DNA of 64,000 nucleotides from Opitutia bacterium (lineage in GTDB: Bacteria > Verrucomicrobiota > Verrucomicrobiia > Opitutales > Seribacteraceae): contig PBLJ01000043.1 of the NCBI GenBank assembly GCA_002721705.1, positions 43,647 through 107,646 of the forward strand, in the 5' to 3' direction. Below are positions 27,952 to 32,885 of this stretch, piece by piece. The notes under the pieces were generated by a model. The model ran no database searches. It worked only from the letters and a program-made list of their open reading frames with translations, and had not been told where the DNA came from. The position numbers were made by a program, and so were the translations under genes. Position 1 is the first letter of the stretch. Every line of letters begins with the position of its first letter.

Positions 27952-29199
27952 ATGCTGGAATTTTCAGATCAGGGATACCGTTATTTCCCTCCCAAGCCGA
28001 ATCGATGGGTGGAAGGAGCTGTGCGTTGGTTGAACAAAGCGTTTATCTTGCCCGGTAAGGGACATCGTATTTCGGAGGTGGTGGTGGACAACCCCGAAGT
28101 GGTCAGCGCGGCCCGAGCCCAAGCGGGCAAGCGTTTGCTCTTTTTGCCCAATCATCCAACCCACAGCGACCCCCAGATCATGACCGAGGTGTTGCGGCAA
28201 ATGAAGACGCAGGGATCATTCATGGCGGCTTACGACGTCTTTCTTCGGGGTAGGTTCGCGGCTTGGTGCATGCAACGCATGGGTTGTTTTTCGGTGGACA
28301 GGGACGGGAGCGACCGCGCCTCCATGAAGGAAGCCGTAGGCATCTTGAAGTCGGGAAAACGTTCCTTGGTTATTTTTCCAGAGGGTAACGTTTACCTCAT
28401 GAACGACAGCGTGACGCCGTTCCTCGAGGGACCTGCCTTCATTGGCCTCAAGGCCCAAAAGGAACTGGGCGAAGAGACATCCGTTCTCGCCATTCCGGTG
28501 AGCATAAAGGTTACGCACCTGACTGATGCCCGTCCCGCCGTCAATCAGCTGCTTGAACGATTGGCCCTGAAGGTGGGTGCCGAAATCAACCAGTCCACCG
28601 ACGTTCTGGTTGAATTGGTGCGTCTTGGCTTGCTCGCCGTGCAAAAGGTATTGTCGGGACTCCTACGCTCCTTGCCGGAAGGAGCGGAGCATGAACACGT
28701 TTTCAGTACCTTGCGGAACGTTGCGAGCGAAATGATCGAGAACTTGGAAGATCAATTGGATATTGTTCCTGCGGAAGGCGAGGAACTGACCAACCGCATT
28801 CGAAAGGTTCGTCGTAAGGTGCATTCCCTTCGGATCGCAGATCCGCCCACCTTGGCCGACTTCAAGGCTCGCACCCTAGCCGCCGAGGCGATGGTGGCGT
28901 ACCGTTTGCTTACTTACCCGGGCGATTACCTGATTACGAACCCGACGCTCGATCGCATGTCCGAGACGGTGGAAAAGATCTTGGAGGATTTGCGTTCCGA
29001 GCCGTTGCCTCCTCTTGCGCCTCGGCGCGCCTTGGTCCGCTTTGGCGATCCCATCGATTTGGTCGAAGAGCGGAAAAATGCGAATGACCGTAGCTTGGTC
29101 ACCACCTTGACCAAGCGTTTCGAGAGCGAAGTTCAGACTGGGGTTGACCACCTGAACGCGGAAAACGATTGCCTTGGGGCCGAACTCTTTCGGCAGTAA
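27952..29199 (+). CDS. PlsC-type 1-acylglycerol-3-phosphate acyltransferase family protein
   Basis: 415 residues. Start at ATG 27952, with GGAG 8 nt upstream; the track ORF begins inside the sulfatase gene on the other strand. The acyltransferase block is at residues ~60-200: [12 protein letters not shown] (the NHxxxxD catalytic motif) and [14 protein letters not shown] (FPEG substrate motif). About 200 further residues contain helical segments ([23 protein letters not shown]) and are longer than a standard PlsC. It lies 4 nt before another acyltransferase-bearing gene, so the two form a lipid operon. The acceptor lipid is not evident. Confidence 0.85.
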
Positions 29200-29203
29200 A
29201 GAA

Positions 29204-31783
29204 GTGAACGAGGCTCCAAAACGATTCCGTGACTGCGTTTGGCTTTTGGCTGCTCAATCCTTGGGGGCTTTCAACGATAACGCGACCAAGGCCATGCTGC
29301 CCGCGTTGGCCGCCCTCGTGATCGGCAAGGGACAGATGGACTTGGTGAACCAGCAAGTCTCTCTCATGCTGATTCTCCCTTTCGTGCTCTTCGGTCCACT
29401 GGCCGGTTGGTTGTCGGACAGGTTTTCCAAGCGCAAGGTAACGAGCGTGGCCTTGTTCGCTCAAGTCGTGGGGCTCGCCATTCTTTGCCTTGGCATGGGC
29501 ATGCAACTGTTCTACCTGAGCTTGGCCGGCTTTTTTCTACTCGCGGTGCAGTCGGCCATGTTGTCGCCGGCCAAGAAAGGCATATTGAAGGAATTGGTGG
29601 GTTCGGAAAAGCTGGGCATGGCGGTGGGCTGGATGGAGATGCTCACAATGGTGGGCATTTTGGCCGGTGCCTACGCAGGGGCCAAGGGGTTCGACGCCTT
29701 GGTGAAAACCGAAGGAGGATGGGGAGCCGGTTTATTGGTTTCGGCAGCGGTTGGTGTATTGGCGGTTTTTTCCTGGATCATCTTTCGACCTACCCCTGAA
29801 GTGTCACCTCGATCGAAAAAACCCTTTCAGGCAGCCATTTTAGTCAGTCACTTCAAGGATTTGGCTTATCTCTGGAAAGAAAAGCCGCTTCGCTTGGCAG
29901 CCTTGGGGGATGCTTGGTTCTGGGCTTTCGGTTCCTTTTTTTACCTAGTCTTGGTCAAATTAGCGGGAGAAGTAGTCGAAGGCGACGTCGGCATGGCGTC
30001 CCTCTATGGCTTTTGGTTTCTCCTGCTTGGAGTCGGCATCATGGCGGGCAGCTTGATAGTGGCTTATTTGAACAGGGGACGGGTTGACTTGGGTTTGGTG
30101 CCGCTCGGCGCCGTAATTATGGCAGTGGCCCTTTATCTTCTTACAAGAGTCGACCCGGAAAGAACTCCCTTTGAACTGTGCTGTGTGGCATTGGGCGCGG
30201 GTGGAGCCTTTTTCTTTGTGCCTCTGAACGCTTTTCTTCAAGACCGCGCAGGAGAAGAGCGTAGAGGACGGGTGGTGGCTGCTTCCAACTTGTTGACCAA
30301 TTTACTGGTTATCGCGCTGATCGGGGTACACGCCTACTTGTCGAATTCGTTACAACTGACCGCCATGGAAGAGCTGTTGATCATGGTGATCCCATCCGCC
30401 TTGTTGGCGGCATACGTAGCGATTAAGTTGCCGGAAGCCTTTTTCCGGACTTTCGCCACTGTGGTTACCCGAATTCTATATCGGGTAAAGATAACCGGGG
30501 CTCGCCGTTTTCCGAAAGAGGGTGGGGTTCTCATTCTGTGCAACCATCTTTCTTTTGCCGATCCCGTGTTGCTGGGATCCAATGCGCCGCGCGAAGTCCA
30601 GTTCCTCGCATTTTCCGGATTGGCCGAAAGCCGTTTCATGAAGTTGGTCTTTCGGTTTACCTCCACTATCCCGGTGTCTCCGACACGAGCCAAGGATGCC
30701 ATATCAAGCGCGTCCAATCGATTGAAGGCAGGCTCTGTGATCTGCATTTTCCCCGAGGGAAGTATTTCCCGAGCGGGGCCCTTGCAGGATTTCAAGAAAG
30801 GCTTCGAGTTGATTGCCCGCAAAGCGGACGTCCCGGTCGTTCCCGCTTGTCTCGAGGGTGTCTGGGGGTCCATGTTCAGTTTCTCCAAAGGCAGGTTCTT
30901 TCGCAAGTGGCCGCGTAGCTTTCCTTATCCCGTTCGCCTCCGTTTCGGTGAGCCCATTCCGGCCAACGAGGCCAAGTCCGATCGAGTGCGAAAAGAGATC
31001 CGGAGATTGTTGAGGGAAGCTTTTTCCGAACGCCCGGAAATGCAGGTGTCACTGAGCCAGGCCTTGCAAGTTTCCTTGAAGCGACGGGCCAAGGAGCCTT
31101 TCCTTTTCCACAAGGCTCAAGCCCCTTGGACGCGAGCAGAGATGTTGCGTTTGGCCACGGAGACACCACAGCAGCGGGATGATGCCGAGAGGGAAAAGCA
31201 AACTTCAGAAGAAGAAATCCTCCATTTGCTGACCTCTGCATTGGATGGAGCAACAGTGAAGGCCGACGGGGTTACTTGGCCTGCGCCCGAATTACTGGCC
31301 AGCGTGATCCGCCTCAGTGAGACCCATTTGTGGAACGTGCCTGCTTTTCGCGTTCGTTTGGAAGGATCCATCGATTCTCCTTGGGACCAGACTTGGCGCC
31401 TCTGGGCGCCGGTTCTCGGCGGGTTGGCGGTAAGGGAGGAGGAGGACGGTCTGCTGACTTTAGGTCGTCCGCACGCCATCGACTCCTGCGTAGACGAACC
31501 GTTTTCGGGATTGGCCGTTCCGGGGCTTGGCGTAGTGGCCATCAATTTACCCGATCCTCCCCCCAGTTCGGATGGGGACCAGCAAATCGGCGCAACCGAT
31601 GGTTCTCTCGGTTTGGTTTTGTCCGGATTGGAGATCCGGATAATGGAGGTTGGCGGTCAGGAGGAGGCTCCGGACGGAGAAAGTGGTGAATTGGAATTTG
31701 CAGGTGTCGCGGGAGAATGGATTGCCGCCAATCGGCGAGGCCGTTTGGACCAGCAAGGGTTCCTGTTTCCCTCGGACAATTGA
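29204..31783 (+). CDS. MFS transporter-PlsC-degenerate acyl-ligase fusion (LplT/Aas-like)
   Basis: About 859 residues from GTG 29204; the track TTG at 29174 overlaps the preceding gene. Residues ~1-420 are a 12-segment major-facilitator domain of LplT type (SLGAFNDNATKAMLPALAALVIG). Residues ~425-620 are a PlsC domain with ILCNHLSFADP and CIFPEGSISRAGPLQ. The last ~240 residues correspond to the position of an acyl-ACP/AMP-dependent ligase in trifunctional proteins of this type but lack its Ser/Thr/Gly-rich ATP loop. Only a late fragment, SGELEFAG...RGRLDQQGFLF, recalls the ligase GE/RlDedGfl region. It likely flips and re-acylates lysophospholipids, using external acyl-ACP or acyl-CoA. Confidence 0.85.
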   Translation: MNEAPKRFRDCVWLLAAQSLGAFNDNATKAMLPALAALVIGKGQMDLVNQQVSLMLILPFVLFGPLAGWLSDRFSKRKVTSVALFAQVVGLAILCLGMGMQLFYLSLAGFFLLAVQSAMLSPAKKGILKELVGSEKLGMAVGWMEMLTMVGILAGAYAGAKGFDALVKTEGGWGAGLLVSAAVGVLAVFSWIIFRPTPEVSPRSKKPFQAAILVSHFKDLAYLWKEKPLRLAALGDAWFWAFGSFFYLVLVKLAGEVVEGDVGMASLYGFWFLLLGVGIMAGSLIVAYLNRGRVDLGLVPLGAVIMAVALYLLTRVDPERTPFELCCVALGAGGAFFFVPLNAFLQDRAGEERRGRVVAASNLLTNLLVIALIGVHAYLSNSLQLTAMEELLIMVIPSALLAAYVAIKLPEAFFRTFATVVTRILYRVKITGARRFPKEGGVLILCNHLSFADPVLLGSNAPREVQFLAFSGLAESRFMKLVFRFTSTIPVSPTRAKDAISSASNRLKAGSVICIFPEGSISRAGPLQDFKKGFELIARKADVPVVPACLEGVWGSMFSFSKGRFFRKWPRSFPYPVRLRFGEPIPANEAKSDRVRKEIRRLLREAFSERPEMQVSLSQALQVSLKRRAKEPFLFHKAQAPWTRAEMLRLATETPQQRDDAEREKQTSEEEILHLLTSALDGATVKADGVTWPAPELLASVIRLSETHLWNVPAFRVRLEGSIDSPWDQTWRLWAPVLGGLAVREEEDGLLTLGRPHAIDSCVDEPFSGLAVPGLGVVAINLPDPPPSSDGDQQIGATDGSLGLVLSGLEIRIMEVGGQEEAPDGESGELEFAGVAGEWIAANRRGRLDQQGFLFPSDN

Positions 31784-31874: not shown

Positions 31875-32885
31875 ATGAAAGAACCCTATTTCCCAGAACC
31901 CTCTGCTCGTTTCGCGCAAGCCGTTGAAAGCCTGTTCGAGCAACGCGTGGTTGTGCTGGGACACCGTCGACCGGATGGAGATTGCATCGGGTCGCAAGTA
32001 GCCTTGGTCCGATGCCTTCGGGCCTTGAGGATCGATGCGGTTGCCGTCAATCCCGACCCCATTCCCCGAACCTTGCAAAACTTCGTGGGCGATACGCCTT
32101 TCCAGAATTGCGACTCCTTGCCCGAAGGTGAAGTCGCGGCGATCTACGTCGATTGTTCGGATCGCGAACGTTCCGGTCTCGAACTGGCGGAGCGTTTCTC
32201 CAACCCTGTGCTTAACGTCGATCATCACGTCAGCAACGAAGGCTTTGCTGCCACGGACCTTGTTATTTCCGATGCCAGCGCCACGGGAGAGATCCTCGCG
32301 GGTTTCTTTTTCGACAATGAATACCCCGTGGATGCCGTCACCGCCCAGGCTTTGTACCTCGGTATTGCAACCGACACCGGGCAGTTTAGGTATCGCGGGG
32401 CAAACCAGCGTGTATTTCGCATTTGCGAAAGGCTATGCGGATTAGGCGCCTCGCCGGCTGATGCAGCCAATGAATTGTATGAACGCGAAAAGCCAGGGCG
32501 CATCCAGTTGCTGCAACGTTTTTTGGCCAGTTTCCGCTACGAGTGCGAGGGGCGCGTTTGCATTGGTATGTTGGATCCGAGCGTGTACGAGGAAACGGAT
32601 ACCTTGCCGGAGGATTCCGAAAACCTCGTCGACTACGCTCGTTCCCTCGAGGGAGTGGACGTAGGCGCGTTGATCGAGGAACGCGATGGCATGATCAAGG
32701 GGAGCTTGCGAGCCAAGGACAATCGCTTCCGAGTGGATTTGTTGGCCAAAAAATTCACCGGAGGCGGTCATGCGTGCGCCGCGGGTTTCAACTTGGACGG
32801 TACCTTGAGCGAGTTTTATCCGACTTTCACTCGAGAGGTAGAGGCCCACTTGCTGCAAGTGGATGAGGGGAGCTTGGATCAATGA
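31875..32885 (+). CDS. nrnA: DHH-family bifunctional oligoribonuclease/PAP phosphatase (NrnA)
   Basis: 336 residues with an AAGGA site before the ATG. The DHH phosphoesterase core shows [14 protein letters not shown] (metal-binding D.D), [19 protein letters not shown] (the DHH triad) and ATDTGQFR. The C-terminal DHHA1 domain ends in [12 protein letters not shown], the nucleic-acid-binding GGGH motif. It degrades nano-RNA and converts 3'-phosphoadenosine 5'-phosphate to AMP. It is followed directly by truB (4-nt ATGA overlap) and ribF, an order widespread in bacteria, often after rbfA, which is not here. Confidence 0.92.

Follow-up and report, generated by a model that had tools for sequence, protein, structure and literature searches.

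The window analysed here, a 64,000-nucleotide stretch of a draft Opitutales genome in 95 contigs, carries on its forward strand, as do all features located below by window coordinates, a gene with a GTG start (29204..31783) that encodes, in a frame open throughout, an 859-aa fusion of an LplT-type MFS transporter, a PlsC-type acyltransferase and a reduced ANL ligase domain. The lysophospholipid transporter domain spans residues 1-404 (29204..30415; LplT PRK11195, 9e-34), with MFS_1 (PF07690) matched at residues 18-368 (9e-29), and the acyltransferase domain spans residues 406-600 (30419..31003), with PF01553 matched at residues 427-550 (6e-23) and the motifs NHLSFADP and FPEGSISR intact; these matches bear out the original prediction of an LplT-PlsC fusion. 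The remainder, residues 601-859 (31004..31780), comprises a linker and a predicted non-catalytic ANL domain that lacks A3, A5, A7, A8 and A10 and ends at the hinge. The original prediction had put some 240 residues after PlsC, with no ATP-binding loop, and about 235-240 are indeed found there without that loop. The Pfam AMP-binding model reaches only residues 797-834, below threshold (E 0.11), and the top NCBIfam model, that of the trifunctional protein (PRK08633, 2.3e-150), is covered only at positions 9-651 of 1147 and scored at 502.5 bits, under its curated cut-off of 1221 bits. In proteins of this kind, lysophospholipid is flipped to the inner leaflet by the MFS domain and given a new acyl chain by the PlsC domain, and the window fusion would presumably combine the two activities.

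Gene neighbourhood of the fusion

A second PlsC-type acyltransferase of about 415 aa (about 27952..29199; PF01553, 1.9e-16), with HX4D and FPEG motifs (NHPTHSDP, IFPEGN), ends 4 bp before the fusion GTG. The tight pair noticed earlier is thus real, yet gene order in relatives revealed similarly tight coupling only in g1 and g3 among the genera of the window's family (f1), and no second PlsC at the fusion-adjacent place in g2 and g4; because the pairing is limited to two genera, the second PlsC is not an essential part of the system. Fusions of family f7 are adjoined by a distant homologue of it (28-30% identity). Downstream, an nrnA-like DHH phosphoesterase gene (31875..32885), a neighbour conserved throughout f1, starts 91 bp past the fusion stop and leaves no possibility of a ligase remainder, so that a frameshift hiding a C-terminal ligase downstream was ruled out. 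In four f1 genomes (G032, G033, G020 and G029; L078-L081), the conserved sulfatase and nrnA genes flank an MFS domain only, PlsC and the ligase remnant being cleanly gone together. The window genome also encodes PlsX, PlsY and a normal PlsC.

The C-terminal domain lacks the ligase motifs and is under purifying selection

The nearest fusion outside f1, that of sister family f18, is a full trifunctional protein of about 1150 aa (46% identity), and alignment with it defines what the f1 proteins have lost. They lack FTSGSSGEPKG (A3) and TGD (A7), they read GLA or the like where f18 has GYGLTE (A5), and they end just past D-x-x-G-F-L, ahead of GRLSRFSK (A8) and GKLD (A10). A motif scan found none of A3, A5, A7, A8 and A10 in the 27 f1 remnants scanned (27/27), all five being intact in the f18 fusion, which rules out a complete but divergent ligase. 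The P-loop is deleted, the mobile C-terminal domain is absent and the fusion terminates at the hinge between the N- and C-domains. The late ligase-like fragment that had been picked out earlier, RGRLDQQGFLF, lines up with TGDLGRLDENGFLH at the A7/hinge of the full ligase, and in a profile-profile comparison the f1 remnant matches the full ligase over its whole length (E 9.6e-20); the remnant profile found nothing related among PDB sequences.

Pairwise dN/dS of the remnant in f1 was mostly 0.09-0.28, above the values for MFS and PlsC and far under 1, the sole value near 1 belonging to a pair separated by hardly any changes. This domain has diverged 2-4 times faster than the MFS and PlsC domains, with few invariant residues, and is under purifying selection. 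Within PlsC itself, FAEG replaces FPEG (window 30700-30800) in 21 of 28 aligned rows, from f1 relatives that belong neither to the window genus nor to g3, an unusual change in a normally well-conserved motif.

Predicted structure of the remnant

The original prediction was to be checked by structure modelling, and the AlphaFold2 model of the remnant is confident and compact (mean pLDDT 86.6, pTM 0.84). At E<=0.001 it has 48 PDB matches, every one of them an ANL enzyme, with TMq up to 0.59 over a partial N-domain. By structure search, the remnant matches in part the fold of ANL adenylation enzymes such as 4-coumarate-CoA ligase, MenE and FadD, of which it would have only part of the N-domain, without P-loop and without C-terminal domain. 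An unrelated domain was ruled out by the profile alignment together with the fold search, and the model corresponds to a partial ANL fold and not to a complete ligase. When PlsC and the remnant were modelled together (pTM 0.83), the fold search returned the Thermotoga PlsC first and ANL enzymes next, and the model suggests that the two are packed in a fixed arrangement.

Distribution in the family and its relatives

The same reduced form, in open frames of 831-875 aa, was found across genera g1-g4 of f1. The matching records belong to Opitutales/Opitutia and Verrucomicrobia, and their names, several in single-cell style, read as placing the Opitutales bacterium in a marine setting. In the order, fusions outside f1 are mostly full-length (about 1140-1280 aa). 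Family f7 has full-length fusions in some members and MFS-PlsC only (600-654 aa) in others; it is a third lineage, one that lost the ligase outright, and since it manages without any remnant, the remnant is not needed in principle. In two g2 genomes (L096 in G005 and L097 in G011), a single in-frame TAA, lying at differing positions in the PlsC domain or directly behind it, splits the fusion into about 612-633 and 229-255 residues; it represents either recent decay or a sequencing error.

A stand-alone Aas-type ligase in the same genome

A separate gene of the window genome (L007/L140; G000:C68:29386-31005) encodes a 540-aa ligase whose best model is again PRK08633, matched in the ligase part (positions 595-1142, 3.1e-149), and which retains all five motifs (TSGSSG, GYGLTE, TGD, GRLSRFSK and GKLD); the models nearest to it are ACP ligases. 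The other ligases of this genome that were considered as substitutes are of other kinds, namely an acetate-CoA ligase (L005), a general medium/long-chain acyl-CoA ligase (L006) and OleC-like (L008), MenE-like (L009) and PaaK-like (L010) enzymes, and this leaves L007 as the specific candidate. It is a likely source of acyl-ACP for the fusion.

Most f1 genomes encode such a stand-alone ligase, about 520-560 aa long, and a PlsC-Aas protein is encoded elsewhere instead in the f29/f33 genomes (20/20) and in four of the five ligase-less f7 genomes. Among genomes at least 85% complete, a separate ligase is present in 41 of 44 whose fused ligase is reduced or missing (including that of G005, cut by a contig end) and in 2 of 8 with a full fusion, where a second copy was called at a cut-off of 40% identity (Fisher p=1e-4), counts that are not independent and whose honest unit is about three lineages. 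Two f1 genomes rated >90% complete (G008 and G024) yielded no trans ligase at E<=1e-40.

In the ligase tree, the f1 stand-alone ligases are nearest to the fused ligase of f18, with weak support (61/33 in the careful analysis, 87 in the quick one), and their grouping with other stand-alone ligases was rejected (p=0.003). The stand-alone ligase of the window genus starts with a stretch that aligns to the PlsC-ligase linker of the fusions; such a start fits fission, yet it occurs in other stand-alone ligases too. Given the weak placement with the sister fused ligase, an origin of the f1 stand-alone ligase by fission is not proven.

Two further genes bear on the lipids of this organism. L008 (1030-2700 on contig C11), the OleC-like enzyme named above, resembles an olefin beta-lactone synthetase and suggests long-chain olefin synthesis. 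L004 (286-2208 on contig C64) resembles the bifunctional ornithine lipid synthase OlsF (9.8e-122, under the curated cut-off), so ornithine-type or related aminolipids are possible.

Reduced fusions in the Akkermansia clade

A survey of the phylum revealed shorter fusions, mostly with open frames of 805-975 aa, in families f29 and f33, a clade that takes in a putative Akkermansia muciniphila, a human gut bacterium. Their C-termini are reduced ligases too, ending at or near D-x-x-G-F, with a remnant dN/dS of 0.08-0.24, and the remnants of both f1 and f29/f33 keep the barrel region G.GRLLPG and the strand D..GF. The MFS-PlsC tree joins f1 to the full-length f18 as its sister (100/100) and sets the f29/f33 proteins apart in a clade of their own, and a single clade of all truncated forms was rejected (AU p=3.6e-5); these trees indicate that ligase reduction arose independently in f1 and in the Akkermansia clade. 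The columns retained in both clades number 137 against 100 expected, a figure reached by 25 of 547 circular shifts; because the retained segments overlap just somewhat above expectation, convergence past the common end point is only modest, and we claim no strict convergence of retained segments beyond that end point. One Akkermansia sp. protein (L076, 2225-5245), a 1007-aa open frame with an LplT-like MFS at its end and about 580 residues ahead of it, resembles the fusion at first sight but is of a different MFS architecture.

DISCUSSION

Our data suggest a model whereby the ligase was relocated to a separate gene and the fused copy decayed to a non-catalytic scaffold, a reading that we hold at a probability of roughly 70%. 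The acyl-ACP synthetase module would have become dispensable in an ancestor because an equivalent ligase was encoded by a separate gene, and the fused ligase would then have shed the ATP loop, the mobile C-terminal domain in its entirety and a number of internal segments. Selection would maintain the leftover, a compact portion of the ANL N-domain, in a structural role, packed against PlsC, and acyl-ACP would be supplied in trans by the stand-alone ligase and/or by fatty acid synthesis, as in the AasC/LpaT system of Chlamydia. Of the original prediction, the loss stands, all five motifs being gone, although 'eroded' understates what is a conserved domain with a predicted fold, family-wide and recurring in the Akkermansia clade. 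The reliance on another acyl donor is likewise supported by the missing motifs of the fused ligase and by the complete stand-alone Aas ligase of the same genome, which is a putative donor. At a wider scale, and with a chance that we judge to fall a little short of even, the ANL domain of LplT-PlsC-Aas may have been converted at least two times independently in Verrucomicrobiota, yielding a compact, non-catalytic domain that has taken on a new role, either as a scaffold or as an acyl-ACP/ligase dock linking the flippase-acyltransferase to a trans ligase.

What the remnant does admits of other answers. It may serve as a dock for acyl-ACP or for the separate trans ligase and so still channel activated acyl chains to PlsC, as acyl-ACP is channelled in E. 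coli Aas (PMC6167442); most reduced forms are accompanied by a trans ligase, and the same barrel region and strand persist in both independent remnants. We regard this role as rather doubtful, since the remnant has few conserved residues and since the trans enzyme of the Akkermansia clade has its own PlsC, which would make channelling unneeded there. It is also unlikely, to a slightly greater degree, that the remnant is a passive and still-eroding vestige without function, on which selection reflects nothing but the avoidance of misfolding. Such a vestige would agree with the faster evolution of the remnant relative to the other domains, with its few invariant positions, with its complete loss in f7 and with its joint loss with PlsC in some f1 genomes; however, it was kept in four genera at near-constant length and with an identical C-terminal end, its dN/dS is well under 1 and its predicted fold is confident, and an equivalent remnant was independently kept in another clade.

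The history of the truncation could also be read otherwise, as one ancient event common to the Opitutales family and the Akkermansia clade, after which full forms were restored by recombination or gene transfer. The overall architecture and the end point are indeed alike; nevertheless, this history is very improbable, because f1 nests with the full-length f18 at full support, the AU test speaks against a single truncated clade and the internal segments retained differ. That the window gene is a chimeric or frame-shifted trifunctional gene, an artefact of which a draft assembly might raise a suspicion, is scarcely credible: about 30 independent assemblies, some with single-cell style names, agree on this form, the next gene is close by and the remnant is under purifying selection.

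We return to the relocation of the ligase to a separate gene, which can be set beside three known arrangements. The trifunctional MFS-PlsC-Aas proteins (PRK08633/PRK06814, acyl-[ACP]--phospholipid O-acyltransferase) share the LplT and PlsC modules and their order with the window fusion, whereas the ligase part in the window is about 240 residues instead of about 540 and has no catalytic motif. In E. coli, LplT and Aas likewise couple a flippase to a 2-acyl-GPE acyltransferase, but they are two proteins with the active ligase on Aas, whereas in the window genome the flippase and the transferase form one protein and the ligase is separate. E. coli LplT contacts Aas via the transferase domain only (PMC11416262), so the loss of the ligase need not break the coupling to the flippase. 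In the split system of Chlamydia trachomatis, the acyl-ACP synthetase AasC and the lysophospholipid acyltransferase LpaT are separate polypeptides, with acyl-ACP provided by fatty acid synthesis or by AasC; the window genome, by its gene content, would resemble it in having a separate ligase, and the available part of the source mentions neither a flippase fusion nor a ligase remnant (PMC6167442). Where the literature mentions fused LplT-Aas proteins, it calls them uncharacterised (PMC11416262), and our literature search found no paper on such an architecture in Verrucomicrobia or on a truncated ANL pseudoenzyme.

These findings carry a warning for annotation, as the best-matching family would name such proteins acyl-ACP ligases despite the lost activation motifs. 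A dead ligase domain appears to have been retained, and reached twice, beside an apparently active flippase-acyltransferase. Together, the full fusion, the reduced ligase, the absent ligase and the flippase alone, with the ligase supplied elsewhere, form a natural series in which the need for physical channelling of acyl-ACP to the transferase, and the uses to which a dead ANL domain may be put, become testable.
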